Assembly (NCBI RefSeq): GCF_020035535.1
Contig: NZ_CP083350.1
Coordinates: forward strand, 310,001 to 374,000
Direction: 5' to 3'
Source: Ensifer adhaerens
GTDB taxonomy: Bacteria; Pseudomonadota; Alphaproteobacteria; Rhizobiales; Rhizobiaceae
Length of the DNA: 64,000 nucleotides
Shown here: piece by piece, positions 18,780-37,055 of the stretch
Layout: every line of letters begins with the position of its first letter
How positions within the stretch are numbered: position 1 is the stretch's first letter
Program-made: the position numbers and the translations under genes
The notes under the pieces: generated by a model
The model's database searches: none
The model's input: only the letters and a program-made list of their open reading frames with translations
Told to the model about the DNA's origin: nothing

Positions 18780-19201
18780 ACCGACGCCCCCGGCTTGTGG
18801 CCATGCTCGGCGTCAATCGTGTGCTCCTCGCCGGTCGCGATCATCGTCCGGGTGGCATCGATCGATGCATAGACCCAAAAGATCCGCATGGGCTCCGTCT
18901 CCGACGCATTGATGAAGCGGTGCGGAACGTTCGCCGGAATCCAGGTCGTGTCATTGGGCCCGAGGGGATAGCGCACGCCATCGATCTCGGCGATCGCCTG
19001 ACCATCGAGGATCATCACGCTTTCCTCGCAATTGTGCTTGTGAAGGCCGATCGCAGCACCTGGATCGAACGCGGTGATGCCGTTGATCATGCTCGCTGAG
19101 CCGCATTTGCGCGTGACCAGCGGCGTGGTGCGTGCGCCGTTGCCACGGTCGTTGGTCTTCAATTCCCTTGGCCGCAGGATGGCCGGCATCACCTTGCTCA
19201 T
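18776..19201 (-). CDS. Cupin-domain protein
   Basis: A 141-residue single cupin. Motif 1 carries the metal ligands in GLHKHNCEESVMILDG (two His, Glu) and motif 2 is PANVPHRFINAS. The surrounding beta strands fit a small dioxygenase or sugar-isomerase-like cupin. The start at 19201 (MSKVMPAILRPRE) overlaps the aldehyde dehydrogenase stop in ATGA, and the stop overlaps the ABM gene. The metal ligands look intact, so it may be an enzyme and not only a binding domain. No substrate can be named. Confidence 0.75.
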   Translation of the reverse strand: MSKVMPAILRPRELKTNDRGNGARTTPLVTRKCGSASMINGITAFDPGAAIGLHKHNCEESVMILDGQAIAEIDGVRYPLGPNDTTWIPANVPHRFINASETEPMRIFWVYASIDATRTMIATGEEHTIDAEHGHKPGASV

Positions 19202-21930: not shown

Positions 21931-21992
21931 GCTTCCAACTCCCGTGTTGAGATCTGCAAAACCCCAACAGGATAAGCCGAAAGGCTGGAAGC
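21931..21992 (-). other. Hairpin-forming leader upstream of the IS110 transposase
   Basis: GCTTCCA (21931-21937) pairs with TGGAAGC (21986-21992), and inside it AGCC (21975-21978) pairs with GGCT (21983-21986) around a 4-base loop. In the IS110 subgroup the guide RNA comes from the end upstream of the transposase, but only 107 bases lie between this start and the otnI stop, so this flank is short for that role. Confidence 0.3.
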
Positions 21993-22037
21993 GTGACTGT
22001 CCCTCGATCATCATCGCCATCTCAATGATCCGTTCTC

Positions 22038-22865
22038 TCAGCGGGCGTGGCCTCTTTCATGCCACCTCCTGATTTCTGATCTCGCCCGCCAGGCGGCAAG
22101 AAATGTCAAACTCTCGACTGTGTTCGCCGAGGGTGTGAACTCGAAGCCGATGGCACCCTGAAAGCTCTGCGCTTCAAGTGCGGAAAGGACTGGCTCGAAA
22201 TCGATCGTCCCGGTCCCCGGCTCCTGTCGGCCCGGATGGTCGGCGATGTGGATGTGTCCGATCCGATAGGCATTTTCCGCGATCCACTGAGCCGGATCGA
22301 TGCCGGTCGCACGCGCATGGAAGGTGTCAAACAGCAGCGAGAGATTGCCGGGACCGAAGACATCCTGCACGCGGCACGCCTGCTCCAGTGTGGAGAGCGC
22401 GTAGCCCGGCACCGACCGCTCACTGATCGCCTCGATCAGGACCTTCGCCGGCGTGCCGGCCGTTCGCTGGACGGCAAAATGCAGGTTTTCGAGGTAGACA
22501 CTGCCGGCGTCTGCATCGCTTCCTTGAGGTGGAACGCCGGCCATCGGGTGCACGTAGGGCGCATCGACAGCGAGCGCGAATTCAAGGGCGCTGTCGAAGG
22601 TTGCGCGAAACTCGGACTGCCGGCCCGGCAGCGCGGCGAGACCTTTTTCGCCCATTGCCAGGTCGCCGAATGCGCAGGAGAGCTGCGCAAAGCGGAGACG
22701 ATGTTTCTTTAAAAGGCCGCGGATGACCGCGGGTTCGAACGTCTCCAGATAAGGGTGTTCTACTGCATCAAAACCCACAGCAGCAGCCGCTTCGAAGCGT
22801 TCCTCGAAGGGTAGCTCCTTGAAGAGATAGCCGGTGTGGGCCGAGAAAATGGGCTGCGCGGTCAC
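22038..22865 (-). CDS. otnI: OtnI-like 2-oxo-tetronate isomerase (hydroxypyruvate isomerase family)
   Basis: A 275-residue TIM-barrel protein of the xylose isomerase-like/hydroxypyruvate isomerase family. It starts FSAHTGYLFKELPFEERFEAA and carries the metal and catalytic acids in VLIEAISERSVPGY and AIGFEFTPSANTVESL, plus HIHIADHPGRQEPGTG. OtnI interconverts 2-oxo- and 3-oxo-tetronate so that OtnK can phosphorylate the product. It is the last gene of the leftward operon and ends about 100 bases before the IS110 transposase start. Linkage to otnK and otnC supports the name; hydroxypyruvate isomerase is the alternative. Confidence 0.78.
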   Translation of the reverse strand: MTAQPIFSAHTGYLFKELPFEERFEAAAAVGFDAVEHPYLETFEPAVIRGLLKKHRLRFAQLSCAFGDLAMGEKGLAALPGRQSEFRATFDSALEFALAVDAPYVHPMAGVPPQGSDADAGSVYLENLHFAVQRTAGTPAKVLIEAISERSVPGYALSTLEQACRVQDVFGPGNLSLLFDTFHARATGIDPAQWIAENAYRIGHIHIADHPGRQEPGTGTIDFEPVLSALEAQSFQGAIGFEFTPSANTVESLTFLAAWRARSEIRRWHERGHAR

Positions 22866-22877
22866 CGCACTATCCCC

Positions 22878-23366
22878 TCAGCGAAGATCGCGCGCGCTGA
22901 CGAGCACGCCGTCCGCATCCGCATAGAGGTAGGCGCCCGGCGCGAACGTGACGCCGCCAAATTGAACGGGCATGCCCGTCTTGCCGGGACCGTCCTTCGC
23001 GGACTTCTTTGGTGTCACCGAAAGACAGAAAACGCCCACGTCCATCTCGGCGATCTCAGCACTGTCGCGCACGGCGCCGTTGATCACGATGCCGGCCCAG
23101 CCATTGTCGCGAAGGATCATCGCGATCTGGTCGCCGAGCAACGCGACGCGGCTCGAGGCGCCACCATCGACAACTATGACCTTGCCCTCGCCCGGCATCT
23201 GCAGTTCGGCCTTCAACAGAGCATTGTCCTCGAAGCATTTGACGGTCGCGATCGGACCGCTGAAGGACTTCGTCTTCCCGAGTTTCAGAAAGGGAAGATC
23301 GCAGAAGTGCACTTCCTCCCCATGCGCATCGACGAGATCAGCCGTTTTCATCGGTGTTTCCTTCAA
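22878..23366 (-). CDS. RraA/HMG-aldolase family protein
   Basis: A 162-residue protein of the RraA fold, which includes 4-hydroxy-4-methyl-2-oxoglutarate/4-carboxy-4-hydroxy-2-oxoadipate aldolases as well as RNase E inhibitors. The family pattern VVDGGASSRVALLGDQIA and the catalytic GIVINGAVRDSAEI loop (Arg-Asp metal and substrate site) are present. The intact active site and the place between otnC and otnI suggest a metabolic aldolase or decarboxylase and not an RNA regulator. The gene overlaps otnC by four bases. The second in-frame Met (MKTADLVDAHGEE) is a possible start. Confidence 0.78.
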   Translation of the reverse strand: MKETPMKTADLVDAHGEEVHFCDLPFLKLGKTKSFSGPIATVKCFEDNALLKAELQMPGEGKVIVVDGGASSRVALLGDQIAMILRDNGWAGIVINGAVRDSAEIAEMDVGVFCLSVTPKKSAKDGPGKTGMPVQFGGVTFAPGAYLYADADGVLVSARDLR

Positions 23367-24001
23367 TAGCCGCCAAAGACGGCCTTCAATTCCGTGACGT
23401 TTTCAGGGGAAAGCATGCGTTTCGGCGCATCGCGCAACAGCACCAGCAGCTTGGCAGTTTCCTCTAGCTCCTCGGCTGCGTAGACCGCCGATGCAATCTC
23501 CTTGCCGGTGACGACGGGGCCATGATTGGCAAGCAGAACGGCGGCATAGCGACCACCGAGTTCCCTGATCATGTCGCCCATTCGTTCGTCGCCCGGCTTG
23601 ACGTAGGGGAGCAGCTTCACTTGCCCCACGCGCATGACAACGTAAGGGGTGAGCGGCGGAATGCAGTCGTCCGGATCAATGTCGGCAAGACAGGAGAGAG
23701 CCGTGGCGAAGGTCGAATGAAGGTGGACCACCGCGCCCGTCTGCGGCCGTGTTTCGTAGAACGCGCGGTGCAGGAACACTTCCTTCGAGGGCTTGTCGCC
23801 GGATATGTGGTTGCCCTCGCGGTCGAGCTTCGAGATGCGTGCCGGATCGAGAAAGCCGAGGCACGAATTGGTCGGGGTCATCAGGATCCCGTCCTCGACT
23901 GCAGCACTGATGTTGCCGGCGGAGCCGACCGAGAAGCCACGGTCGAACAACGACTTCGAAAGCCGGGCGATCTCCTCACGTATCCTGTTCTCAGCACTCA
24001 T
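23363..24001 (-). CDS. otnC: OtnC-like 3-oxo-tetronate 4-phosphate decarboxylase (class II aldolase family)
   Basis: A 212-residue class II aldolase/adducin-family protein. The zinc ligands are seen in VVHLHSTFA and LANHGPVVTG, and a catalytic-type glutamate in SKEVFLHRAFY. The N-terminus SVGSAGNISAAVEDGILMTP is typical for the family. OtnC decarboxylates 3-oxo-tetronate 4-phosphate to dihydroxyacetone phosphate. It overlaps otnK by four bases upstream and the RraA gene by four bases downstream. Fuculose- or ribulose-phosphate aldolase would be the alternative without the otnK neighbour. Confidence 0.85.
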   Translation of the reverse strand: MSAENRIREEIARLSKSLFDRGFSVGSAGNISAAVEDGILMTPTNSCLGFLDPARISKLDREGNHISGDKPSKEVFLHRAFYETRPQTGAVVHLHSTFATALSCLADIDPDDCIPPLTPYVVMRVGQVKLLPYVKPGDERMGDMIRELGGRYAAVLLANHGPVVTGKEIASAVYAAEELEETAKLLVLLRDAPKRMLSPENVTELKAVFGGY

Positions 24002-25269
24002 CTGCCTGTGAGCCTTTCCAATGCTTTGGCAAAGAAATCGGGGCTGCCGAAATTGCCGGACTTCAGCGCCAACGCCACGGGACTTGCCCCGCCCGACAAC
24101 AGCACCGGCACCCCAGGATCGATTTCCGGCCCAATCGTCAGCGCACCGAGATCGAGTGCCGAGACGACCGCTCCGGACGTTTCGCCACCGGCAACGACGA
24201 GGCGACGGACGCCAACCTTGACCAGTTCCTGCGCCGTTTTGGCGAAGAGATCATCGAGCGCCCCGGCAACCGCTTCCCGGCCGAAGCGCGCCTGGACCGC
24301 CTGGACCTCCTCGGGCGTGCCCGAAGAGTAAACGAGCGGCGCCCTGCCCTCGTTCGCGCGCATGAAGGACGTCAGCTCGGCGGTCGTCACCGAGCCGGCC
24401 ATGACGCCGGCAACGTCGATGGCAAGCGTCGGGTGGTTCTTGCGGTGGATCTCGACCTGTTCGCGGGTCGCACCGGAGCAGCTTCCGGCGAGAATGGCCT
24501 CCGGCCCCTCGACGCCGGCAGTACTGGCGCTGTGGCCGGCAGCAAGGCCTTGCGCGATGAAGTTTGCGGCAAGACCGATCGCGATGCCGGAACCACCCGT
24601 GACAAGGCGATCTCCCGCCGCTGCACGACCGATTGCGACGAGATCCTCATCCGTGATGGCATCGACGATGACGAGCGTGCGATTGCGCTCGCCGTTCTCC
24701 CGCAGTGCTGTTCCGATTTCGGCCGCCCCTTGCCGGACGACGGCGATATCGACATGTCCAACCTCAGTTGTCGACTGGAGCCGCAGCCAGCGCCGGATAT
24801 CCGCGTCGGTCATCGGGTTGAGCGGGTGGCTTTGCAGGCCGGACTCGCTCAGAAGCCGATCCTTCACGAAGAGGTGGCCCTGATAGACCGTTCGGCCGGC
24901 ACCGGGAAAAGCGGGGCAGGAGATCACGCCTTTGACGCCCAAGGCCTCGGCAAGCGCTTCGGCGACGGGGCCGATATTGCCCGCCGGAGTGGAATCGAAG
25001 GTCGAGCAGTACTTGAAGACGATCTGCTGGCACCCCTGATCGAGCAGCCAGCGCAGGCTCGCCAGCGACTGCTCGATGGCCGAAGCTGCCTCGACCGACC
25101 GGCTCTTCAGCGCAATCACGCCAGCCTCCACATCGGGTTCGGCCTTTGCCCGCGGGATTCCAAGGTATTGAACGGTGCGAAGACCACCCTGCCCCGACAG
25201 ACCCTTGGCAAGCGTGTTCGCGATATCGCTTGCCCCTGTAAAATCGTCTGCAATGACGCCAAGCAGCAT
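23998..25269 (-). CDS. otnK: OtnK-like 3-oxo-tetronate kinase (four-carbon acid sugar kinase)
   Basis: A 423-residue four-carbon acid sugar kinase (formerly DUF1537). The N-terminal substrate domain has GVIADDFTGASDIANTLAKG and FKYCSTFDSTPAGNIG; the C-terminal nucleotide-binding domain has RRLVVAGGETSGAVVSAL and LLSGGASPVALALKSGNFG. OtnK phosphorylates 3-oxo-tetronate at C4 for OtnC. The family also holds D-threonate and D-erythronate kinases, but the full length and the otnC-otnI neighbours favour OtnK. It is preceded by a racemase-like gene 20 bases away. Confidence 0.87.
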   Translation of the reverse strand: MLLGVIADDFTGASDIANTLAKGLSGQGGLRTVQYLGIPRAKAEPDVEAGVIALKSRSVEAASAIEQSLASLRWLLDQGCQQIVFKYCSTFDSTPAGNIGPVAEALAEALGVKGVISCPAFPGAGRTVYQGHLFVKDRLLSESGLQSHPLNPMTDADIRRWLRLQSTTEVGHVDIAVVRQGAAEIGTALRENGERNRTLVIVDAITDEDLVAIGRAAAGDRLVTGGSGIAIGLAANFIAQGLAAGHSASTAGVEGPEAILAGSCSGATREQVEIHRKNHPTLAIDVAGVMAGSVTTAELTSFMRANEGRAPLVYSSGTPEEVQAVQARFGREAVAGALDDLFAKTAQELVKVGVRRLVVAGGETSGAVVSALDLGALTIGPEIDPGVPVLLSGGASPVALALKSGNFGSPDFFAKALERLTGR

Positions 25270-25289: not shown

Positions 25290-25955
25290 TCAGGCTGCGC
25301 CGAGAAGGCGCTTGAGTTTGTCGATGGCGGCATCCGGGCTCGACAGGACCGGTATGTTCGTCACCGCCCGCACCGCAGATACGGCGCGTGCCGTGGAAAA
25401 ATGCGCAAGCACGATGCTGTCGAAGCCACGCAACCCCGCCGCAGCTTCGGCGACGAGCCGATTGTGGGTCTCTGCATTACCCGCCCGCACCGCCTCGATC
25501 GCGCCGTGCACCAGAAAGCTCTCCATGGTCGCGGTCGGATCGATCCTTTCGGCCTCCTCCCAAAACTCCGCCTCCATGCCGTCGCGCGCAGGCGGGAAGG
25601 TGTAGAGCATGGCAGTCCTGCCGCCTTTCCGGATCGCAGCCTCAAACATCGCCTCGTTGGGTTTCAGCACCGGGATGTCGACGGTCGTCGCCGCCTGCTC
25701 GATCGCCCGCCCGAAGGCCGAGCAGGTGAAGAGCACGGCCGCACTCCCGATCTGCCGCGCATATCGGGCCAGAGCCTCGATACGCGCCGTCAGGGCTTCG
25801 GTGATGTCGGTGCTTGCGGCACGGTCGGGCGAAAGGCTGTCCTCCAGAAGGTTGACCACATCCGCGTCCGGCCAAGCCGTTGCGAAAGCAAGTTTGATCG
25901 GTTCCATCGCGATCGGCGTCGCGTGGACGAGCGTTATCCGGGGCTGTCTCGACAT
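25290..25955 (-). CDS. Asp/Glu racemase-superfamily protein
   Basis: A 221-residue protein of the Asp/Glu/hydantoin racemase superfamily, different from EutA in this window. The first half has the cysteine motif VLFTCSAFGRAIE; the second half has IVLAHFSTARAV, where a cysteine is usual, so the second catalytic cysteine appears to be missing. The start ITLVHATPIAMEPIKLAF is characteristic of a subgroup found beside catabolic ABC transporters. It lies between the transporter and otnK in the same operon. It may act as a decarboxylase, isomerase or racemase on a carboxylate intermediate; its reaction cannot be given. Confidence 0.72.
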   Translation of the reverse strand: MSRQPRITLVHATPIAMEPIKLAFATAWPDADVVNLLEDSLSPDRAASTDITEALTARIEALARYARQIGSAAVLFTCSAFGRAIEQAATTVDIPVLKPNEAMFEAAIRKGGRTAMLYTFPPARDGMEAEFWEEAERIDPTATMESFLVHGAIEAVRAGNAETHNRLVAEAAAGLRGFDSIVLAHFSTARAVSAVRAVTNIPVLSSPDAAIDKLKRLLGAA

Positions 25956-26011: not shown

Positions 26012-27088
26012 CTAGCGCTGGCCCGCCGAAAACACCCAGACGCTCTCAGACGGGATTCGTGCCCAGACAGTGCCGGTCGCCAGCTGCCGTGCGCCGTGTG
26101 CCTTGGCAACGAAATCGCCGCGACGCAGACGGTATTCCCAGCGGTCGCCGAGATAGATGCTGTCGTCGAGGTTCATCTCAAGCCCGCCCGCCTCGGGCTG
26201 GTCGCTGACGCTGATCTGCTCGACCCGGATCACCGCACGCGCGTCGTCGGATGCGTTGACGCCGGATGCCTCGCGCACCGTGCCGTCGAGGCTCCAGTTG
26301 TCGCCGCCGATGACGGCGCTACGGCCGTTGATCGATTTCACCTTCGCCTTGACGATGTTGTTCGCGCCCAGGAAGTCTGCCGAATAGAAGCTGTTCGGAT
26401 TGGAATATATCTCCTGCGGTCCGCCTTGCTGGACGATGCGACCGTCCTGTAGCAGGAGAATGTTATCGGCAGCGGCCAGCGCCTCGCTTTGATCGTGGGT
26501 GACGAGGATCGCGCAGATCTCGAGGTCGAGGATCAGCTTGCGGATCCAGTAGCGCGCCTCTTCTCTGAGCTTCGCATCGAGATTGGAGAGCGGCTCATCG
26601 AGCAACAGCACACGCGGCTCATAAACCAGCGCCCGGCAGATGGCGACGCGCTGCTGCTGGCCGCCCGACAATTGCGAGGGGAAGCGATCGGAAAGATGGC
26701 CAAGGCCCATGCGTTCCAAGATCGCCTGCACACGCTTTTCGATATCGGCCTGCGTCACCCCGCGCAGCTTCAGGCCGTAGCCGACATTCTCCTTGACGGT
26801 GCGATGCGGCCAAAGGGCGTAGGATTGAAACACGAGGCCGATGTTGCGCTGTTCGGGCGGAAGCGCGAGCTTCCTTTCGCCATCGAGCACGGTCTTGCCG
26901 CCGATGACGATCTGGCCGATTTCCGGCTGCTCGAGCCCGGCGACGCAGCGCAACAGCGTGGTCTTGCCGCTGCCCGAGGCACCCAGCAGGGCGACGATGG
27001 AGCCGCGCTGCGCGGTGAAGGACGCGCCTTTCAGGATCTGCAGACCGCCCAGCCACTTCTGGACATTGCTGACAACGAGTTCAGTCAT
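26012..27088 (-). CDS. ABC transporter ATPase (ferric/putrescine-type)
   Basis: A 358-residue ATPase of the FbpC/PotA class: Walker A GASGSGKTT, Q-loop in LVFQSYALWPH, signature LSGGQQQRV, Walker [15 protein letters not shown] and VTHDQSEAL, followed by a C-terminal TOBE-like regulatory domain from about residue 240 (NNIVKAKVKSINGRSAVIGG). Its start lies 8 bases inside the permease gene. With the fused permease and the binding protein it makes a complete importer. Ferric-type transporters also carry small organic anions, so iron is not assumed. Confidence 0.85.
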   Translation of the reverse strand: MTELVVSNVQKWLGGLQILKGASFTAQRGSIVALLGASGSGKTTLLRCVAGLEQPEIGQIVIGGKTVLDGERKLALPPEQRNIGLVFQSYALWPHRTVKENVGYGLKLRGVTQADIEKRVQAILERMGLGHLSDRFPSQLSGGQQQRVAICRALVYEPRVLLLDEPLSNLDAKLREEARYWIRKLILDLEICAILVTHDQSEALAAADNILLLQDGRIVQQGGPQEIYSNPNSFYSADFLGANNIVKAKVKSINGRSAVIGGDNWSLDGTVREASGVNASDDARAVIRVEQISVSDQPEAGGLEMNLDDSIYLGDRWEYRLRRGDFVAKAHGARQLATGTVWARIPSESVWVFSAGQR

Positions 27089-28841
27089 GGATTTTTGCTC
27101 CCAAACGGAGGGCGAGTGCGAGACCTGCGCCCGTCAAGACGATGCTGATGAGGGAAAGAGCGGCGATCGTGTTCATGGCGCCGGTCTGAAGAAGCGAGAC
27201 CATCAGCGAACCGATGACTTCCGTGCCGGCGCCCATGAGGTAGACGCCCGTCGCATATTCGCGAAGGAAGATGATCATGATGAGCGCCCAGGCACCGGCA
27301 AGACCCGGCCGGACGATCGGGATCACCACATCCTTCCAGGTGCGGCCTATCGTTGCGCCCGTGGTACGGGCGGACTCTTCGAGCTCCGGGGCGACCTGGA
27401 TCAGCGTGCCCTGCAGGAGGCGCAGACCATAGGACAGGCCGACGACCAGATAGGCGACGAAGAGGCTGACCAGCGTTGGTCTCAGCGGCGTGAGCAACGG
27501 CACGAACAGGAAGACCCAGAAGAAGGCAAGGCCGACGACGAGGCCCGGAAGCGCACGCGGCAGGAGGACGATATAGTCCAGCACCGTGTTCGACATGCCC
27601 CAGTTGCGGTGACCGGCCAGGCCGACGGCGAGATAGATCGCCACGGCTGCAGCACCACCGACGACCGACAGGATGATCGTATTGACGATGCCATTGTAGA
27701 GGCTCGGCACTTCGAGCATGCGGCTGAAGTTGGAGAGGGTCAGTTGGTCGAAGAGGTTGACGCCCTCGCCCCAGGCATCGACGAACGCGCGCACCGTGAT
27801 GCCGCCGATCGGGAGAGCGACCGAGACAAAGAGCCAGAAACCGATGACCGAAAGGGCAATGACCTGGCCGCTTGTGCCGAGTTTCAAGGTGGCGACGCGG
27901 GCACCCTTGCCGCCGAGTGCGGCATACTTGCGGGCATTGCGCAGCAGCCTGCGCTGCATCCACACAAGCGGCAGCGTGATCAGCACCAGCACGACCGCGA
28001 CGACAGCCATGAGCTGATAGGTCGGTGTGCCGAACAGCGTCGTCAGCTTGTAGATGTAGGTGGTCAGTACCATGATCCCGTTCGGATCCCCTAGCACGAG
28101 CGGAATGCCGAAGGTTTCGAAGCCGAGCAGGATGTTGAGCGCCGCCGCAAAGATCAGCGCCGGCAGCACCATCGGCAGCGTGACGTCGCGCGAGACCTGC
28201 CAGATGGACGCGCCGGTGGTGCGGGCGGCTTCTTCGAGGTCCGACGGCAGATTGCGCATGGCAGAAGAGACATAGAGATAGACGTGCGGAACGTGGCTGA
28301 GGCCGGCAATCAGGATCATGCCCGGCAGGCTGTAGATGTTCCACGGCACGAAGCCGAGAATGTCGCGCACGAAGAGCGACACGAAACCCGTCGGGCCGAC
28401 CGAGACGGTGTAGCCGAAGGCAAGCACGATCGACGAAATGAACATCGGCACGAGCACGAGGATCTCGAGCAGGCGCTTGCCCTTGATGTCGGTGCGCGTA
28501 ATCAGGAAGGCAAGCAGGCCGCCGAGCGGCACCGCGATCGCCACCATGCCGAACGAGAAGATCGCCGTCGTGCCGAGTGCACGATAGAAGTTCTTGTCGG
28601 TGAAGACGTATTTGTACGCATCGAGGCCGAAGTGCGCACGGGGGCTGAAGAACGCGGCCGTCAGGAAACTCTGGTAGATGATCAGGCCGACGGGTGCCAG
28701 GACGGCGACCGCGAGCAGACCAATGACGATGCGCCGATAGAAGTTTGCATTGCCATGCCGCGGCATCTTTGCCGGATACTTCTTTTCGGCTGCGGCTTTC
28801 GTCAGGGGGACTGCAGCCGGTGCTTGGATGTGGGTAGACAT
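27081..28841 (-). CDS. Fused two-domain ABC permease (ferric-type)
   Basis: A 586-residue protein with two permease modules in tandem, about 12 membrane segments. Each half has its own EAA loop: DLEEAARTTGASIWQVSRDVTL in the first and ELEESARTTGATIGRTWKDVVI in the second, both followed by PxVxPxL-type helices. The FbpB-type fusion lets one gene supply the whole channel. It lies between the binding-protein gene, 61 bases upstream, and the ATPase gene, which it overlaps. Confidence 0.87.
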   Translation of the reverse strand: MSTHIQAPAAVPLTKAAAEKKYPAKMPRHGNANFYRRIVIGLLAVAVLAPVGLIIYQSFLTAAFFSPRAHFGLDAYKYVFTDKNFYRALGTTAIFSFGMVAIAVPLGGLLAFLITRTDIKGKRLLEILVLVPMFISSIVLAFGYTVSVGPTGFVSLFVRDILGFVPWNIYSLPGMILIAGLSHVPHVYLYVSSAMRNLPSDLEEAARTTGASIWQVSRDVTLPMVLPALIFAAALNILLGFETFGIPLVLGDPNGIMVLTTYIYKLTTLFGTPTYQLMAVVAVVLVLITLPLVWMQRRLLRNARKYAALGGKGARVATLKLGTSGQVIALSVIGFWLFVSVALPIGGITVRAFVDAWGEGVNLFDQLTLSNFSRMLEVPSLYNGIVNTIILSVVGGAAAVAIYLAVGLAGHRNWGMSNTVLDYIVLLPRALPGLVVGLAFFWVFLFVPLLTPLRPTLVSLFVAYLVVGLSYGLRLLQGTLIQVAPELEESARTTGATIGRTWKDVVIPIVRPGLAGAWALIMIIFLREYATGVYLMGAGTEVIGSLMVSLLQTGAMNTIAALSLISIVLTGAGLALALRLGAKIHD

Positions 28842-28902: not shown

Positions 28903-30000
28903 TCAGCGGCCGAGGGCGGCTTTCCAGTCGTTGAGGAACTGAACGCGCTTCATCTGGTCCATGTATTCCAGAACACCCTCGTCGACGGCGATCGGCTTCA
29001 GGCCACCACCGACACGCTCGTTGAGCGTCTTGATGTTGAGGCCGGCGGTCACGTCTTCACGGATCGACGGCAGTCCGCCTTCCGCCAGAAGCGACTGGCC
29101 TTCGGACGACAGCATGAAGTCGACGAAGAGCTTGGCCGCGTTCGAATGCGGAGCATCCTTGGTGATCAGCGCCAGACGCGAGAAGGCGGGCGTATAGTCC
29201 GTTGCGAAGTGCACACCGAGGTTCGGGCTCTCCTTGACCCAGTCGAGCGCGTAGGAGCCGATGATGTTGATGGCGATGACGTTTTCGCCCGAAACGACCG
29301 TTTCCTTCATACCGCCGGAGCTGGAATAGATCTTGGCGCCATCGTCGCCCATGGCCTTGGCAAGATCCCAGAAGTCAGGCCGGTTACGCGCATCGTTGGA
29401 GTGGTGCAGGAAGCCGGAACCGCTCTTTTCAGGATCGAAGGTCGCAACCTTGCCTTGAAGCTCGGTCTTGTTGCCCTTCAGGAACGTGATCATGTCGGCA
29501 TAGGTTTTCGGAAGCTTGTCTTCGGAAAGGGCCTTGGTGTTGTAGATCACGCCGATCGGCTCGACGGTGGTGGCGTAGAGCGTGTTCTTGTAGTTTGCCC
29601 AGCTCGGAAGGTTGCCGGCTTCTGGTGAAGCGTAATCAGCCGCATAACCATCCTGGACCAGCGTCATCTGCAGGTCCATCGCCGAACTCCAGACGATGTC
29701 GGCGGTGGTCTGGCTGGCGGCAGCCTCCGAAATCACCTGGTTATAGGCACCGTTCGTCCCGAGATCGTTGTAGGCGATCTTGATGCCGTATTTTTTGGTG
29801 AAGGCATCCTGCAGCTTCTGCGACTGGGCCGCATCGGTCGAGGTATAGATCGAAACGGTGCCTTCCTGCTTGGCCTTGGCGATCAGGTCCGCATAGTCGG
29901 CAGGGTAGCCCGCGGGCACTTCCTGCGCGTGCGCCGCAAAAGCCGTCATGAACGCGGTGACCGCAACGGCCCCAAGGCGGCCGGAAACATGCTTGTTCAT
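28903..30000 (-). CDS. Periplasmic binding protein of a ferric-type ABC transporter
   Basis: A 365-residue extracellular solute-binding protein of the FbpA/type 2 family. The N-terminus MNKHVSGRLGAVAVTAFMTA then FAAHA is a Sec signal peptide cleaved before QEVPAGYPADYAD. The domain has SIYTSTDAAQSQKLQDAF and IAYNDLGTNGAYNQVISEA, a form common in importers for organic anions. The start at 30000 has AGAAGAGAAG upstream. A 26-base palindrome-like element at 30092-30117 lies in front and a similar element precedes the neighbouring units. The ligand is probably the substrate of the otn-linked pathway. Confidence 0.86.
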   Translation of the reverse strand: MNKHVSGRLGAVAVTAFMTAFAAHAQEVPAGYPADYADLIAKAKQEGTVSIYTSTDAAQSQKLQDAFTKKYGIKIAYNDLGTNGAYNQVISEAAASQTTADIVWSSAMDLQMTLVQDGYAADYASPEAGNLPSWANYKNTLYATTVEPIGVIYNTKALSEDKLPKTYADMITFLKGNKTELQGKVATFDPEKSGSGFLHHSNDARNRPDFWDLAKAMGDDGAKIYSSSGGMKETVVSGENVIAINIIGSYALDWVKESPNLGVHFATDYTPAFSRLALITKDAPHSNAAKLFVDFMLSSEGQSLLAEGGLPSIREDVTAGLNIKTLNERVGGGLKPIAVDEGVLEYMDQMKRVQFLNDWKAALGR

Positions 30001-30091: not shown

Positions 30092-30117
30092 TTGGCTTTT
30101 AAATATCCAAAGTACAA
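30092..30117. promoter_or_regulatory. Candidate GntR operator, copy B (before the ABC/otn operon)
   Basis: A 26-base element beginning TTGGCTTTTA and ending CCAAAGTACAA, inside which CTTTGG and CCAAAG form an inverted repeat (30090-30095 and 30107-30112). It aligns without gaps to the elements at 31278 and 32382. It lies 92 bases before the binding-protein gene and just past the end of the dehydrogenase gene. Confidence 0.6.
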
Positions 30118-30124
30118 ACTCCGA

Positions 30125-31219
30125 TCAGGCGTTTGCAAGCTTCCGCTCGCCCTCACCGCTGCGAACGGCACGCGCCACGAGCGAACCGAATGCATCCGTG
30201 CCGATGCTGCCGCCGAGGTCGCGCGTCCGGGACCCGGGGTTCGCGAGGACCTCGTCGACCGCGCGCTCGATTTCCGCGCCCGCCGCCTCGAATTGCGGCA
30301 GACCGCGCTGCTCGCCCAGCCAGCTAAGCATCATGGCTGCAGACAGGATGAGCGAAGTCGGATTGGCGATGTTCTGGTTCTGGATATCGGGTGCTGAACC
30401 ATGCTGCGCCTGGGCGCAGACAAGGCCGGTCTCGGCATTGGCGTTGATCGAGCCGGCCAGGCCAAGGCTGCCGGAGAGCTCGCTGGCGAGGTCCGAAAGA
30501 ATGTCCGAGTAGAAATTCGTCGCGACGATCACGTCGAAGCGCGAGGGGTCGCGGACCAGATGGGCGGCCATCGCATCGATGATGAATTCGTTGAGCGTGA
30601 CCTCGGGGAATTCGGCGGCAACCTTGCGTACCTGCTGAAGGAACAGGCCGTCCGTGAGGATGAAGTTGTTGGCCTTGTGAACTGCGGTCACCTTCTTGTT
30701 GCGCTTCATGGCCAGCAGGAAGGCTTGGCGCGCGATGCGCTCGCAGGCAGACGCGGTGATTTTTCGCACGGAAAGCGCCACGTCCGGCGTCGGCATGAAC
30801 TCACCCGTACCGGCATACATGTTGCGGTCGGGATAAAAGCCTTCCGTCGCCTCGCGCATGATGACGAGGTCCATTTTCTTGGCGTCGTTCAGGAACGGAC
30901 GAGAGCGCGCCGGACGCACGTTCGCATAGAGGTCGAGCTTGACGCGAAAACCTGCCGAGACGTTCACGCCACCCTTGTCGCGGGCCGGATAATCCATGTG
31001 GGACTGGGGCCCAAGGATGATGCCGTCGAAGGTGCGGGCGCGATCAAGCGTCTCATCTCGCAGCGTCGAGCCGTACTTCTCCAGGCTCGTGAAGCCGGTG
31101 TTTTCGAAATGGTATTCGAGGCCCAGGCCGAAAGCCGCGTCGGCTGCCTTCAGGACCTCCATGGTTGCCGCAGTGATCTCCGGACCGATCCCATCACACG
31201 GCGTCACGAATATTTTCAT
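30125..31219 (-). CDS. Isocitrate/isopropylmalate/tartrate dehydrogenase-family enzyme
   Basis: A 364-residue beta-decarboxylating dehydrogenase. The family's substrate and metal residues are in place: Arg92, Arg102, Arg122 (IMREATEGFYP), Tyr129, Lys182 (VHKANNFILTDG), Asp215, Asp239 and Asp243 (NFYSDILSDLAS). The C-terminal HGSAPDIQNQNIANPTSLIL loop binds NAD(P). The length is that of tartrate/D-malate dehydrogenases, and the substrate loop differs from both leuB and icd, so the 2-hydroxy-acid substrate is open. It stands alone between two copies of the shared operator, beside the GntR regulator. It could supply the keto acid used by the otn enzymes. Confidence 0.82.
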   Translation of the reverse strand: MKIFVTPCDGIGPEITAATMEVLKAADAAFGLGLEYHFENTGFTSLEKYGSTLRDETLDRARTFDGIILGPQSHMDYPARDKGGVNVSAGFRVKLDLYANVRPARSRPFLNDAKKMDLVIMREATEGFYPDRNMYAGTGEFMPTPDVALSVRKITASACERIARQAFLLAMKRNKKVTAVHKANNFILTDGLFLQQVRKVAAEFPEVTLNEFIIDAMAAHLVRDPSRFDVIVATNFYSDILSDLASELSGSLGLAGSINANAETGLVCAQAQHGSAPDIQNQNIANPTSLILSAAMMLSWLGEQRGLPQFEAAGAEIERAVDEVLANPGSRTRDLGGSIGTDAFGSLVARAVRSGEGERKLANA

Positions 31220-31277
31220 CAGCTAATCTCCCATGAGGCGACGAGCGAAGTCGCCGCTCTACGTCACGGGCGGATTA

Positions 31278-31303
31278 TTGGCTTTTTAAATCTGAAAATG
31301 CAA
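31278..31303. promoter_or_regulatory. Candidate GntR operator, copy A (before the dehydrogenase gene)
   Basis: A 26-base element with left half TTGGCTTTTT (31278-31287) and right half GAAAATGCAA (31294-31303) around a 6-base centre. It is 59 bases before the dehydrogenase start and 3 bases past the regulator stop. Its reverse complement shares 19 of 20 half-site bases with the element at 32319. Confidence 0.65.
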
Positions 31304-31306
31304 TCC

Positions 31307-32233
31307 CTATTTTTCGAGATTGTCTTTTTCATGCGCCTGGTGCGACCAGGACCAGGTAATCGGCGACTTCTTGGACAGTGCGCCGCCAAGGTGGCGACGC
31401 ATCGCGTAGGAGGCTTCGACGACCTCGCCGCGCTCAAGAAGATCAAGGATTTCGAGGTGTTCCTGGCATTGCCGTACCGTGCGGCTGCGGTCGACGCGGG
31501 AGCGATATTCGAGGAGGCGTCGCATGCGGTTCACCCGCACCAGCGAAATGTGGAAGAAAGGATTGTTCGACATCTTGATGAGCTCTTCGTGGAAGAGCGC
31601 ACCATTGTGCAGTAGGCGCTCCGCCGGCAGTCGCTCGATGTCCGTCTCCAGCATGCGCATCTGGATGCGCCGCTGCTCATCGATGATCTTTCGATCGAGG
31701 CTGAACTCCGGCTCGAGCATGGCAGCCGGCTCGATCAGCATGCGGAAACGATAAATCTGCTCGAAGGCTTCCGGTGTCTTGGCGACCGGCAGGAATCGCC
31801 AGCCGTAACCCTGCTTGCGCTCAGCCCACCCTTCACGGGTCGCGCGCATCAGCACGTCGTTGAGCTGGGACTTGGTCAGTTCGTAGCGCTCCCGCAGCGT
31901 CTGTTCCGTGACCTCTGCCGGGATGCGGTCGGTCAGCCAGTCCTCGGCAAGGCGCTGGTAGTCGTTCGCAACTTCGAACGGTTCGGCATCTTCACGGACC
32001 CTCTCGGCGATGGCGCCCGGCGGCTCTTTCACGAAGAAGCCGCGGTTCTCCTTCTGCTCCAGCAGCCCCTGCCCGGCGAGAATCTCCATCGCCTCGCGGA
32101 CCGGTGACCGGGAAACGCCGAAACGATCTGCCAATTGTTGCGTCTTCACATGGTCGCCGACATTCAACTCCCCGGATGTCACGAGCAGGCTGATTTCGTT
32201 GGCGATGGTCTGTGCCAATTGGCTGGAACGCAT
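31307..32233 (-). CDS. GntR/FadR-family regulator with two winged-helix-like domains and an FCD domain
   Basis: A 308-residue regulator. Residues 1-70 form a GntR winged helix (TQQLADRFGVSRSPVREAME). Residues about 92-150 look like a second winged helix (LRERYELTKSQLNDVLMRAT, then GYGWRFLPV), which is not part of ordinary GntR proteins. Residues about 155-287 are an FCD effector domain with likely metal histidines in FHEEL (215), CQEHLE (259) and RRHL (281). The start at 32233 excludes an unconserved extension. It is divergent from the aconitase gene and its own upstream region holds two of the shared palindromes, so autoregulation is likely. Confidence 0.82.
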   Translation of the reverse strand: MRSSQLAQTIANEISLLVTSGELNVGDHVKTQQLADRFGVSRSPVREAMEILAGQGLLEQKENRGFFVKEPPGAIAERVREDAEPFEVANDYQRLAEDWLTDRIPAEVTEQTLRERYELTKSQLNDVLMRATREGWAERKQGYGWRFLPVAKTPEAFEQIYRFRMLIEPAAMLEPEFSLDRKIIDEQRRIQMRMLETDIERLPAERLLHNGALFHEELIKMSNNPFFHISLVRVNRMRRLLEYRSRVDRSRTVRQCQEHLEILDLLERGEVVEASYAMRRHLGGALSKKSPITWSWSHQAHEKDNLEK

Positions 32234-32318
32234 GTCGGTAGTCCCCGGATTCGTAAAACTTTGCCGGGTGCCACGATATTTCACAACGCACGCAAAGGGA
32301 ACCGAACTCCCTTATTTT

Positions 32319-32346
32319 TTGCATATTCCGCCGATGAAAAAGCCAA
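32319..32346. promoter_or_regulatory. Candidate GntR operator, copy D (before the regulator gene)
   Basis: Half-sites TTGCATATTC (32319-32328) and AAAAAGCCAA (32337-32346) with an 8-base centre. Compared with the reverse complement of the element at 31278 (TTGCATTTTC and AAAAAGCCAA) only one half-site base differs, but the centre is two bases longer. It is 86 bases upstream of the regulator start. Confidence 0.55.
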
Positions 32347-32381
32347 TGAAAGGGCTTTCGTTGGTTGACTTTGGTACTATT

Positions 32382-32407
32382 TTGGATTTTTAGTTTTAAA
32401 AAAGCAA
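32382..32407. promoter_or_regulatory. Candidate GntR operator, copy C (before the aconitase gene)
   Basis: A 26-base element with left half TTGGATTTTT (32382-32391) and right half AAAAAAGCAA (32398-32407). It ends 16 bases before the aconitase start. TTGACT at 32365-32370 with a 17-base spacer would place a -10 (TTTTAG, 32388-32393) inside the element, so a bound regulator would block transcription. Confidence 0.6.
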
Positions 32408-32423: not shown

Positions 32424-35015
32424 ATGGCGCTGAGCATCCCTTCGGTCCACGGAACGCTGAACGTTGTAGACCTCCGCGCAGATTTCGGACCTGATTTCGA
32501 ACGCCTGCCCTGGGTTCTGCGCATTCTGCTTGAAAACGTCGCACGCAAGGACGCCGCCCAGTTGGCCTCGACCATCGCGGCGCTCAAATCCTGGCTCGAA
32601 GCAGGAACGAGCGAAGCGGAGATCGCATTCCACCCTTCCCGGGTGCTGATGCACGACACGACCTGCGTGCCGGCTCTCGTCGATATTGCCGCCATGCGCG
32701 ATGCGATCGCGGAAGCCGGTGGCGATCCGGACGCGTTGAGCCCGGTTCTTCCGGTCGATGTCTCCATCGACCACAGCGTCGCTGTCGACCGGTACGGCCA
32801 GCCCGACGCTCGCCGCTTCAACATGCAGCGCGAAATGGACAGAAACAGCGAGCGCTATCGCCTGATGAAATGGGCGACCCAGGCCCTGCCAGGTGTCAAG
32901 GTGCACCCCCCGGGAACCGGGATCATGCATACGATCAACCTCGAGCAACTTGCAAAGGTGATTTCCGTCGAGGAACGCGGTGGGGAACAATGGGCCGTGC
33001 CGGATACGCTGATCGGCACCGACAGCCATACACCGATGATCAACGGCATCGGCGTATTGGCCTGGGGCGTCGGCGGCCTCGAGGCCGAGAGTGTCTTCTT
33101 TGGTTTTCCGGTGACGCTGCGCATTCCTGATGTGGTCGGCGTGCGGCTGAAAGGAAGGCTGACGCCAGGCGTTCTGTCTACCGATCTCGCGCTGGAAGTG
33201 ACCCATCTGCTGCGACGTCATGGAATATCAGGCGAATTTGTCGAGTTTTTCGGCGAGGGTGTTTCGACGCTTTCGGCCGGAGATCGCGCGGTCGTTGCCA
33301 ACATGGCGCCGGAATACGGCGCCTCGACGGGTTACTTTCCGATAGACGAACAAGCCCTCGCCTATCTCAGCCGGACGGGTCGGTCTCCGTCCCATTGCCA
33401 ACTCGTCCGCGACTCCGCGAAGGGGCTCGGCCTCTGGTTCGAGCCTGCGGCTTCGCCGCGCTATACCCGCGTGATCGAGCTCGACCTCACGGTGGTCGAA
33501 CCCTTGATGGCCGGTCCACGGCGCCCGCAGGACAAGCTGGCACTGGCCGATGCCTTGGGTGTACTTGAGACCGCATGCGGCCGGCCCTTGGAGCAAGGCA
33601 CCCCCGGCATACCGGACGGCGCAATCGCGATCGCCGCGATCACGAGCTGCACCAACACGTCGGATCAACGACTGCTGGCCGCGGCAGGCCTGGTCGCCCG
33701 CAATGCCAACCGGTTAGGCCTGCGCCCGCCCTACTGGGTCAAGACATCGCTGGCACCCGGCTCGCCATCCGCCGAACTGTTTTTGAGGAGAAGCGGCCTG
33801 CTTGCCGAGCTTGAGGCCGTCGGTTTCGGCATCGTCGGCCACGGATGCACCACCTGCATCGGAAACTCTGGACCCCTTCAAAGCGAGATGGCCGACGCGA
33901 TCGGCGGCGGTACGATCGCGGCAGCCCTGCTTTCGGGAAATCGCAATTTTCCCGGCCGCGTGCATCCAAGTCTCCAGTTCGGTTTCCTGGCATCGCCGCC
34001 GCACGTTCTGGCCCTATCCTTGATTGGAAAGTTCGTTCCGGACCCAATGAACACGGAGATCGCGCGAGCCGCCGACGGAACGCCCATGCGCCTCGGCGAC
34101 TTGATCCCTGCCGACGGGGAGATCGATGCCGTTCTCCAGCAGCACTCCGATCCGCAGGACTACCACCGCGCGTTCCTGGACGCGGAACGAAACGAGGCCT
34201 GGCATGCGTTGGCCGCGCCAACGTCATCGACGTTTCCGTGGGACGAAACCTCAACCTACATCCGACGGCCACCCTTTGCCGTCGCAGGCGCGCCCAGCCG
34301 CCTGGGGACCTACGTGGCGCACCCCTTGCTCGTGCTCGGAGATGACATGACCACGGACCACATCTCGCCGGCCGGCCAGATTGGCGCCACCAGCTATGCC
34401 GGCCGCCACCTCGTTGCCGCCGGTGATCCCGCAAACGATCTCAACGTTTACGCCGCCCGTCGCGGCAACTGGAGGGTGATGGTGCGCGGCCTCTTCGACA
34501 ATCGCTCGGCCGCCAACCACCTCCTCGACGGTAGGCCCGCGTTAACGACCGTGCACGCACCGACAGGGGAAGAGGCTCCGCTATGGGAGGTAGCCGAACG
34601 CTACCGATCGGAGCAGCGCTCCGTCGTCGTCGTTGCAGCAGAACGCTACGGCGCCGGATCATCGCGTGACTGGGCGGCGAAAGGCATCGGGCTGCTCGGG
34701 GTACGGGCAGTGATCGCCTTGAGCTTTGAGCGGATTCACCGCACCAACCTGATCGGCATGGGTGTTCTTCCCATCATTCTCCAGGATCAGAAGGTGCCGC
34801 TGATATCAGCTCTTGACCTCCTGGAGATCGATGCGACGGCCATTTGTCCGCGCGGGCCGGTGCCCTTGGTTCTGAAACGCGCCTCCGGCGAAAACGTAAC
34901 GCTGGTGGCTCGGGCGGCGGTGGAAACGGAGCAAGAGGTGGAGACGCTTCGAGCAGGCGGGATGATCCCTCAGATTCTCGACCGCCACCTCAAGGCGCAC
35001 GGCCTGGTGCCTTGA
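32424..35015 (+). CDS. Aconitase-family [4Fe-4S] hydratase, divergent paralogue of AcnA
   Basis: An 863-residue protein of the AcnA/IRP group with the three cluster cysteines Cys409 (SCTNTSD), Cys475 and Cys478 (GHGCTTCIGNSGPL), the Asp-His pair in VSIDHSV (116-117) and the C-terminal swivel domain with GAGSSRDWAAKG. At residues 75-82 it reads LMHDTTCV where AcnA has a QDFTG-type motif, so a substrate-contacting glutamine is replaced by His77. That points to a substrate other than citrate, though aconitase activity is possible. GGAG precedes the start. It is divergent from the GntR gene and carries its own copy of the shared operator. Confidence 0.85.
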   Translation: MALSIPSVHGTLNVVDLRADFGPDFERLPWVLRILLENVARKDAAQLASTIAALKSWLEAGTSEAEIAFHPSRVLMHDTTCVPALVDIAAMRDAIAEAGGDPDALSPVLPVDVSIDHSVAVDRYGQPDARRFNMQREMDRNSERYRLMKWATQALPGVKVHPPGTGIMHTINLEQLAKVISVEERGGEQWAVPDTLIGTDSHTPMINGIGVLAWGVGGLEAESVFFGFPVTLRIPDVVGVRLKGRLTPGVLSTDLALEVTHLLRRHGISGEFVEFFGEGVSTLSAGDRAVVANMAPEYGASTGYFPIDEQALAYLSRTGRSPSHCQLVRDSAKGLGLWFEPAASPRYTRVIELDLTVVEPLMAGPRRPQDKLALADALGVLETACGRPLEQGTPGIPDGAIAIAAITSCTNTSDQRLLAAAGLVARNANRLGLRPPYWVKTSLAPGSPSAELFLRRSGLLAELEAVGFGIVGHGCTTCIGNSGPLQSEMADAIGGGTIAAALLSGNRNFPGRVHPSLQFGFLASPPHVLALSLIGKFVPDPMNTEIARAADGTPMRLGDLIPADGEIDAVLQQHSDPQDYHRAFLDAERNEAWHALAAPTSSTFPWDETSTYIRRPPFAVAGAPSRLGTYVAHPLLVLGDDMTTDHISPAGQIGATSYAGRHLVAAGDPANDLNVYAARRGNWRVMVRGLFDNRSAANHLLDGRPALTTVHAPTGEEAPLWEVAERYRSEQRSVVVVAAERYGAGSSRDWAAKGIGLLGVRAVIALSFERIHRTNLIGMGVLPIILQDQKVPLISALDLLEIDATAICPRGPVPLVLKRASGENVTLVARAAVETEQEVETLRAGGMIPQILDRHLKAHGLVP

Positions 35016-35183
35016 CGGATGGGCTTCGAGCAACACGGCACCGAAACTGCAAAACACATGAAAGTGGCGCGGCTTCCAATCTCGTCATCGTGAAGAATCC
35101 GCCCGGCGCCCGTTTGCCGATCGGTAGATATGGATTGTCGATAGGCCTGGAGTATGTCAGCTTCCCGTTTGGGAGGCCGATCG

Positions 35184-37055
35184 ATGACAACGCAACTATC
35201 GCATATACGTGAGATAGAGCGTGTCGGCCTGGGCGCTGCGAGCCCGCGCGATGCACCTGTCGTCCAGTCCTGGCTGCGCTGCCTCAACGATTACAAGCTG
35301 GATCCTACGATCGCGCAGGAAGCCTATATCGTTCCGGGATCGAAGCTGCGCGAGCATCGCGAACAGGCGGAAGAACTGATCCGCATCGGTCGTTCGGGCC
35401 TTGAAGGGCTGTTCAACCAAGTCGCCGAGCAGAACTATGTTCTGTTGCTGTCCGATGCACGCGGCGTCACCGTCGATTTCATGGGCGATCCGACCTTCGA
35501 CAATCAGCTTCGCAAGGCGGGGCTCTATCTCGGCTCGGAATGGTCGGAAAACCGCGCGGGCACCTGCGCCGTCGGGGCCTGTATCGTCTCCGGCGAGCCG
35601 GTCATCATTCATCAGGACGATCATTTCGACGCCAGCCATATCGGGCTGACCTGTACGGCGGCGCCTGTGTTCGACACGCTCGGCGATCTGACCGCCGTGC
35701 TCGACATCTCCCAGCTCCGTTCACCCACCGCCAAGACGAGCCAGCAACTGGCCCTGCATCTGGTATCCGCCACTGCGCGGCGGATCGAGCTTGCCAACCT
35801 CATGACCCGCACCCGCAACGACTGGGTCCTGCGGCTTGCGCGCTCCCCGGAATTCCTTGACGTCGACCCGGACGCCGCCATCGCCCTTGATGGCAGCGGG
35901 CGCATCACCGGCATGACCCACGGCGGCTTCGGCGCACTCGCGCGCTCGATGAACATCCGCGGCCTCAGAACACGCGATTTCCTGGGCCTCCCGGTCTCCG
36001 AGGTCTTCGATATCGACGTGGACGACCTGCCAAACTTCATGCGCGGCCGGCCGAACGGCGAACGCCTGCTCCGAGCCAAAAGTGGGCTGGTCCTTTTCGC
36101 CAGTGCCATCGCACCCGTTGTCAGCCACCGCGCGCCCGCCGTGCCCGAACAGCACCTCCCGCGGGCCTTGCGCGATCTCAGCCACGGCGACACCGCAATG
36201 GAGCGGGTGCAGACCCGTGCGGCGAAACTGGCCACCCGCCGCATTCCCATTCTCATTCAAGGGGAAACGGGTAGCGGCAAGGAATATCTCGCTCGCGCGA
36301 TCCATGACAGTTGCGGCGACAACGGCAATTTCGTCGCCGTCAATTGCGCGGCCATCCCGGAGCACCTCATCGAATCCGAACTATTCGGCTACGCTCCCGG
36401 CGCCTTTACCGGCGCCAGCCAGAAGGGCAAGCGCGGCCTGATCGAGGATGCCGACGGCGGAACCCTGTTCCTCGACGAGATCGGCGACATGCCGCTCTCG
36501 CTGCAAAGCCGATTGTTGCGCGTGCTCTCGGAAAACGAGATCCAACCGGTCGGCGCGCTGAAGGCTCGCCCGATCCGCCTGCGCGTGGTATCCGCATCCC
36601 ACCGCGATCTGGCGGAGCTGGTGAAGGAGGGCCGTTTCCGGGAAGACCTCTATTATCGCCTGAATGCCGCAATGCTCGTGCTCCCCGCCTTGCGAGAGCG
36701 TCAGGATCTCGGCTGGCTGATCGACCAGTTGCTCCTTCGCGTCGAGAAGGAAAACAACGAGTCCTATCGCATCGACAAGCCCGCCCGGGCAGTCTTGCTC
36801 GCGCATGAATGGCCGGGAAATCTGCGCGAACTTTCGAACGTTCTGCGGGTGGCTGCCGCCCTTTCCGAGAATGGCCTCATCGACACCGAGTGCCTGCCGG
36901 AGCATCTTTTCTCCGCCGCCCTCCATTCGCTGCCGGGCGAGGATGATGGGCTGCGCCAGGCACTCAGAGACTGCGGCGACAACGTCTCGGCACTTGCGAG
37001 AAAGCTCGGCGTCAACCGTTCCACCATCCACCGTCGCCTGAAGCGTATCAACTGA
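35184..37055 (+). CDS. AcoR-like sigma-54-dependent activator (GAF, AAA+, Fis)
   Basis: A 623-residue enhancer-binding protein. An N-terminal GAF-type sensor region (about residues 60-200, LSDARGVTVDFMGD, ENRAGTCAVGACIVSGEPV) is followed by a central AAA+ domain with Walker A GETGSGKE, the sigma-54 contact loop GAFTGAS and Walker B GGTLFLDEIGD, and a C-terminal Fis helix-turn-helix (ALARKLGVNRSTIHRRLKR). The start at 35184 has GGGAGG upstream. AcoR proteins activate alcohol/acetoin or related catabolic genes in response to a small carbonyl or alcohol. A sigma-54 promoter and symmetric repeats lie directly after this gene and before the alcohol dehydrogenase gene, its probable target. Confidence 0.88.
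   Translation: MTTQLSHIREIERVGLGAASPRDAPVVQSWLRCLNDYKLDPTIAQEAYIVPGSKLREHREQAEELIRIGRSGLEGLFNQVAEQNYVLLLSDARGVTVDFMGDPTFDNQLRKAGLYLGSEWSENRAGTCAVGACIVSGEPVIIHQDDHFDASHIGLTCTAAPVFDTLGDLTAVLDISQLRSPTAKTSQQLALHLVSATARRIELANLMTRTRNDWVLRLARSPEFLDVDPDAAIALDGSGRITGMTHGGFGALARSMNIRGLRTRDFLGLPVSEVFDIDVDDLPNFMRGRPNGERLLRAKSGLVLFASAIAPVVSHRAPAVPEQHLPRALRDLSHGDTAMERVQTRAAKLATRRIPILIQGETGSGKEYLARAIHDSCGDNGNFVAVNCAAIPEHLIESELFGYAPGAFTGASQKGKRGLIEDADGGTLFLDEIGDMPLSLQSRLLRVLSENEIQPVGALKARPIRLRVVSASHRDLAELVKEGRFREDLYYRLNAAMLVLPALRERQDLGWLIDQLLLRVEKENNESYRIDKPARAVLLAHEWPGNLRELSNVLRVAAALSENGLIDTECLPEHLFSAALHSLPGEDDGLRQALRDCGDNVSALARKLGVNRSTIHRRLKRIN

Follow-up and report, generated by a model that had tools for sequence, protein, structure and literature searches.

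Which regulator controls a putative organic-acid locus of Ensifer adhaerens, and through which DNA sites? The locus lies in a 64,000-nucleotide stretch of contig NZ_CP083350.1 (RefSeq assembly GCF_020035535.1, positions 310,001 to 374,000), referred to here as the window. It comprises genes for an aconitase (acnA), a GntR/FCD regulator (gntR), an isocitrate/isopropylmalate-family dehydrogenase (idh), and an ATP-binding cassette (ABC) transporter together with a racemase-family protein, OtnK, and OtnC (the ABC/otn operon). A first-pass annotation had noticed four related palindrome-like elements among these genes and proposed that they are operators of the GntR/FCD protein. The letters, coordinates, and spans of the four elements and the gene context were all borne out by reading the sequence. 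The accompanying claim that every unit of the locus is preceded by an element holds for ABC/otn, idh, gntR, and acnA but not for the OtnI-like and aldehyde dehydrogenase genes, which have no site of their own in the window. Given where the elements lie, their conservation, how rarely they occur in the genome, and their occurrence together with gntR, we consider it very probable that all four serve as operators for the GntR/FCD protein of the locus itself and mark a local regulon of one catabolic locus.

Four putative operators and their rarity in the genome

The ABC/otn operator is found 7 nt past the idh stop codon and 91 nt upstream of the start of the substrate-binding protein (SBP) gene, and the idh operator is found 3 nt past the gntR stop codon and 58 nt upstream of the idh start (Table 1). 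The gntR operator lies 85 nt upstream of its gene and has a weaker second box, whereas the acnA operator lies 16 nt upstream of the start codon, over the predicted -10 position.

To score such sites, we used a symmetric 9-bp half-site matrix trained on idh-upstream sites from 11 genomes outside the close clade of the window. Of 35 loci, these 11 were retained; 13 were dropped because they are closely related to the window, and another 11, all distant (L016, L022, L023, L026, L029, L031, L032, L034, L037, L038, and L040), because of low or wrong picks. The scan recovered the idh sites in 9 of these 11 distant left-out loci, the exceptions being L037 and L038. With spans of 24 to 28 allowed, the four elements outrank every other place in the window (34.0, 31.7, 29.9, and 24.8), the idh site being an orthologue of the training sites and the other three not. 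The next non-overlapping place scores 12.0, and among 50 windows generated by a first-order Markov model the maximum averaged 13.0 and reached 19.2 at most.

Pattern searches of the whole genome (8,125,528 bases) gave a similar picture. Allowing 0 to 1 mismatch, the 26-base pattern matches solely at the idh and acnA sites; at 2 mismatches, the ABC-operon site appears as well, together with a single position on a different contig. At up to 3 mismatches, there are 16 matches per strand, below the 25 of a reversed-pattern control. The only matches to a gapped pattern are the sites at idh, gntR, and acnA (control matches, 0); the ABC-operon site, whose second box is poorer, is not among them.

Conservation in related loci

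Conservation of the elements in orthologous loci was one of two checks set by the first-pass annotation, and it turned out to be strong. A search for relatives of the regulator yielded 38 loci (labeled L0xx), including members of Shinella, Sinorhizobium, Mesorhizobium, Rhizobium, Devosia, Aureimonas, Paracoccus, Roseobacter, Granulosicoccus, and Bordetella. Over 768 kb, made up of the 38 loci and 23 kb from the window, 96 sites reach a score of at least 20, compared to 0.0 sites per round in three rounds of randomized loci; at a threshold of at least 16, randomization gave 1.7 sites per set. The 38 loci hold 112 sites of at least 16, and none is within a mapped gene, where mapped genes are those located by tblastn with 12 window proteins (47% of the sequence, other genes being unmapped).

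The sites recur in front of the same transcription units. Counting sites of at least 16 within 300 nt before a gene, we found one before idh in 33/35 loci, before acnA in 22/28, before the SBP gene in 20/29, and before gntR in 16/36, some of the last being divergent acnA sites. The downstream operon genes perm, atp, rac, otnK, and otnC together have a site upstream in 0 of 150 cases. The distance from the idh site to its gene is nearly constant (median, 59 nt). Across 17 distant genomes, TTGCATTT and AAAAGCCAA are 94 to 100% conserved per column and the centre varies, a comparison that is partly circular: 11 of the 17 rows are training rows, all rows were chosen for holding a site, L031, L032, L037, L038, and L040 were excluded beforehand, and the centre was outside the model. 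In many relatives, the gntR site spans 27 to 28 bases, has a mostly poor second box (TATGCAA or CGTGCAA), and often scores below 16.

Promoter geometry and direction of control

In 18 of 29 acnA upstream regions, TTGAC stands 11 nt (once, in L030, 10 nt) before the TTGG or TTGC of the acnA operator, and this spacing holds also in Mesorhizobium loci where acnA does not adjoin gntR. With a 17-nt spacer, the -10 position falls within the operator's first half; the end of the operator is 10 to 25 nt from the mapped start downstream in 19/22 loci. Its placement over -10 at a near-fixed distance from TTGAC points to repression as the likely mode of control at acnA. The first-pass annotation had suggested the same from the window site; the placement recurs in the 18 regions above, and from it we infer the direction. 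The idh operator could span a -35 box (TTGCAT) and reach a -10 box (AATAAT). Under a repression model, a dimer would set its DNA-binding heads over both boxes and, without inducer, would cover the acnA -10 position and probably the idh promoter, repressing transcription. A pathway-linked carboxylate, perhaps with a metal, would then bind the FCD domain and release the regulator. The 27- to 28-bp gntR site with its poorer second box would be a weaker autoregulatory site.

Activation at some or all sites is an unlikely alternative that still deserves weighing. Judged by eye, the gntR promoter is probably downstream of its operator, and control of gntR could therefore go either way. Activating FCD proteins also exist: CitO of Enterococcus faecalis is described as a citrate-responsive FCD regulator in which a metal is implicated and which acts as an activator, unlike the repression proposed here. 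The position of the acnA operator, in contrast, suits a block of polymerase, and we favor repression at this promoter.

The acnA and gntR operators (32319-32407) are 61.5 to 62 bp apart centre to centre, about six helical turns, in 13 loci including the window (L011 was mis-set in this measurement). This spacing suggests binding to the same face of the DNA, although a shared promoter geometry explains it equally well. An imperfect 22-bp inverted repeat, CCAATGAAAGGGCTTTCGTTGG (32343-32364), shares CCAA with the gntR operator; it is absent in the relatives inspected by eye and was treated as incidental.

Co-occurrence of the motif with the regulator gene

We compared 289 genomes of the class, using thresholds of E 1e-80 or better for idh and E 1e-50 or better for GntR. 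An idh homologue is present in 17 of them (the window's own counted) and GntR in 3, the two occurring together in the window's genome alone. The 16 genomes that lack GntR contain 17 idh homologues, none of which has a site in its upstream 400 bp (best score, 11.8), and both genomes with GntR but no idh match carry the motif beside the regulator gene: L061 (GntR 58% identical) with two sites of 23.1 and L062 (38% identical) with one site of 17.7. The motif thus follows the GntR gene rather than the dehydrogenase gene. It also stays near gntR when the neighbours differ, down to 43% identity in L042, where the site precedes acnA. The assignment of the elements to the GntR/FCD protein gains support from this co-occurrence as well as from conservation. 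A regulator encoded elsewhere, with the GntR gene as a mere neighbour, is very improbable given this distribution. A gene for a sigma-54 activator (PF00158) lies downstream of acnA, at 35154-37055; as a candidate regulator it was rejected, since tblastn at E 1e-15 found no counterpart of it in the DNA of the 38 loci.

Operator design

The typical operator appears from the aligned sites to be 26 bp long, with inverted 9-bp boxes TTG(G/C)(A/C)TTTT (TTGSMTTTT) round a weakly conserved A/T-rich 8-bp centre. Over 87 sites, positions 1 to 3 and 6 to 9 of each half carry 1.1 to 2.0 bits and positions 10 to 13 carry 0.20 to 0.43, the boxes having belonged to the selection model and the centre not. That the elements are merely A/T-rich -35/-10 promoter sequences of conserved genes, as could be argued from the possible -35 and -10 boxes at idh, the covered -10 position at acnA, and a two-fold symmetry of the selected sites that is partly built into the model, has very little to recommend it, since both arms of the idh sites read TTGCATTTT/TTGGCTTTT inverted, the span of 26 is kept in 87/96 sites even though 25 to 28 were allowed, and the pattern at 0 to 1 mismatch is found nowhere else in 8.1 Mb and is absent before idh homologues without gntR. 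A sigma-54 promoter reading was also rejected: the consensus for such promoters has GG and GC about 10 bp apart, and here they are about 20 bp apart.

Several observations weigh against the assignment of all four elements to the GntR/FCD protein. The gntR site, besides its apparent position upstream of the promoter, differs from the others in span, its second box is poorer, and no convincing gntR site was found in L024 to L027, L031, L032, or L042. No site of at least 16 precedes idh in L037 and L038, whose GntR proteins are 56% and 55% identical, and such a site is absent before acnA in 6/28 loci and before the SBP gene in 9/29. The counts are not independent because many loci are close relatives (near-identical sets are L008/L039 and L019/L020/L022), and A/T-rich boxes in GC-rich genomes favor intergenic DNA anyway. 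The idh homologues behind the count of 0/17 are 45 to 69% identical, so that some may not be orthologues, and the genomes with GntR but without idh number two, one of them scoring just 17.7.

The proposed operator departs from the rule for its subfamily. According to PMC4494728, operators of the FadR subfamily mostly have GT and AC 2 to 3 nt apart at a conserved centre, with NanR and BioR as exceptions. Operators of the window type lack a GT-N2/3-AC centre; their 9-bp boxes are 8 bp apart round a weak centre, and their regulator is predicted to have two winged helix-turn-helix (HTH) domains. Otherwise, FadR, PdhR, LldR, and DgoR resemble the window regulator in having an N-terminal GntR winged HTH and a C-terminal FCD domain, and they combine palindromic A/T-rich operators with carboxylate-type metabolism, as proposed here. 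SdhR of the HutC subfamily is likewise reported with a 26-bp palindrome (PMC4494728) but differs in subfamily and in operator sequence, TCTTATGTCTTATATAAGACATAAGA. If the head is doubled, the boxes that it reads would come to lie further apart, which would be a simple explanation for the window operator.

A predicted second winged HTH in the regulator

The first GntR winged HTH scores 70.7 bits against PF00392 (cut-off, 27), which places the protein in the GntR superfamily, and the C-terminal FCD domain (PF07729) places it in the FadR/FCD subfamily. Pfam leaves about 90 residues between these domains. Segment 76-160 is more conserved than the segment of the first winged HTH (mean column identity, 74% versus 61%), and by itself it matches PF00392 at E 5.8e-5, below the curated cut-off. 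Matches to PF00392 at E 0.01 or better were obtained for 17/19 aligned segments, and hhalign matched a profile of this second winged HTH to the first with a probability of 91.6% (E 8.3e-7).

An AlphaFold2 model (mean predicted local distance difference test [pLDDT] score, 78.6; predicted template modeling score, 0.61) has winged HTHs at residues 5-68 and 91-147, followed by the FCD helices. Block 91-150 has a pLDDT of 83 to 91, and the linker 72-88 is below 50. In a fold search, the complete winged HTH-FCD chains 6ep3, 4p9f, and 6za7 of the PDB align to residues 85/90-297 at 5.8 to 6.3 Å, and 2di3 and 7xp0 align to the first head plus FCD (4-295) at more than 10 Å. With either head, a match to a normal FCD regulator is possible, so one of the two is extra; the relative placement of the two heads is unreliable in the model and is not given by the fold search. 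The chain is thus predicted to consist of two winged HTHs and then FCD, whereas a single winged HTH per chain is the usual FadR/FCD form, though not a strict definition.

FCD regulators with two heads may form a wider group, since the window regulator is not the only protein with this architecture: a paralogue in the same genome (L078 in Table 1), at a different locus and 26% identical over residues 18-181, also combines a double winged HTH with FCD in one chain. Our search of the open literature found no description of the regulon or of FCD regulators with two winged HTHs. Histidines 215, 259, and 281 of the FCD domain are invariant in 24 aligned proteins. Metal-assisted carboxylate ligands are known for FCD domains, and the three histidines are compatible with such a ligand.

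Three points go beyond the first-pass annotation: a predicted second winged HTH, an operator that departs from the FadR-type rule, and the weaker second box at gntR. The regulon itself is of a known kind; its operator and regulator architecture are unusual. If true, two-headed chains and a non-GT-AC operator would extend the accepted account of how GntR/FCD proteins read DNA.

Table 1. Features of the window and of related loci (window positions unless preceded by a locus label)
Feature	Position	Strand	Details
ABC/otn operator	30092..30117		TTGGCTTTTAAATATCCAAAGTACAA; 26 bases; score 24.8
idh operator	31278..31303		TTGGCTTTTTAAATCTGAAAATGCAA; 26 bases; score 34.0
gntR operator	32319..32346	-	TTGGCTTTTTCATCGGCGGAATATGCAA; 28-base span, TTGG...GCAA; score 29.9
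acnA operator	32382..32407		TTGGATTTTTAGTTTTAAAAAAGCAA; 26 bases; score 31.7
Predicted acnA -35 box	32365..32370	+	TTGACT; 11 nt upstream of acnA operator
GntR/FCD regulator (gntR)	31307..32233	-	308 aa; PF00392 6-68, PF07729 159-282
First winged HTH	32024..32224	-	Residues 4-70; Pfam, model, fold search
Predicted second winged HTH	31790..31966	-	Residues 90-148; PF00392 below cut-off, hhalign, model
FCD domain	31355..31780	-	Residues about 152-293; Pfam, model, fold search
Isocitrate/isopropylmalate-family dehydrogenase (idh)	30125..31219	-	PF00180
ABC substrate-binding protein (SBP)	28903..30000	-	Domain match, structural relatives
ABC permease	27081..28841	-	Domain match
ABC ATPase	26012..27088	-	Domain match
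Asp/Glu/hydantoin racemase-family protein	25290..25955	-	PF01177
OtnK, 3-oxo-tetronate kinase	23998..25269	-	NF043035, 532.1 bits (cut-off 350)
OtnC, 3-oxo-tetronate 4-phosphate decarboxylase	23363..24001	-	NF043034, 326.4 bits (cut-off 250)
AcnA-type aconitase	32424..35015	+	NF009520, 1122.2 bits (cut-off 905)
OtnI-like gene	22038-22865		209.6, below the cut-off of 325 for OtnI 2-oxo-tetronate isomerase
IS110-family transposase gene	20866-22020		Between OtnI-like and aldehyde dehydrogenase genes
Aldehyde dehydrogenase gene	19198-20610
GntR/FCD paralogue, same genome	L078:974-2011		Two PF00392 stretches and FCD
DctA-type transporter	L025:4112-5425		Site 27 nt upstream
trans-Aconitate 2-methyltransferase	L025:8293-9066		Above curated cut-off; site 28 nt upstream
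Class II aldolase	L025:10939-11985		Site 34 nt upstream
Chemotaxis receptor	L025:12088-13914		Site 33 nt upstream
Operator copy	L013:9636-9661		Score 35; 36 nt upstream of aldehyde dehydrogenase gene
Operator copy	L014:9049-9074		Score 35; between OtnI-like and methyltransferase genes
trans-Aconitate 2-methyltransferase	L014:9106-9876		Above curated cut-off; near regulator

Genes of the locus and a possible pathway

The locus shares with erythronate/threonate (otn) operons an OtnK and an OtnC above their curated cut-offs. Unlike those operons, it has an isocitrate/isopropylmalate-type dehydrogenase and an aconitase, and its OtnI-like protein, below the OtnI cut-off, may have a function related to that of OtnI. 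The dehydrogenase reaches the curated cut-off of none of the 16 listed NCBIfam models. In L005, the OtnI-like and aldehyde dehydrogenase genes are adjacent, and the IS110 insertion may therefore cut the aldehyde dehydrogenase gene off from the operon in the window.

Among solved structures, those most closely related to the SBP are 7f6e, deposited as an iron ABC-transporter protein, and 3c9h, an ABC substrate-binding protein. We take 7f6e to be a metal-citrate binder, an assumption that the literature search did not confirm. Single relatives of the locus hold a trans-aconitate 2-methyltransferase (L014 and L025), DctA and a lactonase (L025), an SMP-30-type lactonase (L032), an amidohydrolase (L018), or TctC (L035). 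From the SBP relatives and these neighbour genes, our guess is that the substrate is a citrate-like acid or lactone; the candidates considered, likewise as guesses, were hydroxycitrate or its lactone, trans-aconitate, and hydroxymethyl-tartrate.

Taken together, these features allow a tentative proposal, in which we place rather less than even confidence. The window regulator could belong to a distinct FCD branch whose dimers read DNA with a pair of winged HTHs on either side, four in total; the extra HTH would push the boxes to the ends of the 26-bp operator and leave the centre nearly free. This branch would control a so far undescribed pathway that starts with a citrate-like acid (or its lactone) and passes through aconitase and an isocitrate-type oxidative decarboxylation to 3-oxo-tetronate phosphate and dihydroxyacetone phosphate; in some rhizobia, the pathway would have a chemotaxis receptor of its own and a detoxifying methyltransferase.

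Further putative regulon members in relatives

The operators give a testable regulon for an uncharacterized organic-acid pathway of rhizobia and their relatives, and the motif already points to further members. In one Rhizobium locus (L025), sites scoring 25 to 35 precede five genes: the acnA frame, with a site 26 nt upstream, and genes for a transporter, a methyltransferase, an aldolase, and a chemotaxis receptor (Table 1). A methyltransferase gene also precedes gntR in L023. The score-35 operator copies in two other loci suggest that the aldehyde dehydrogenase gene in L013 and the OtnI-like and methyltransferase genes in L014 belong to the regulon there.

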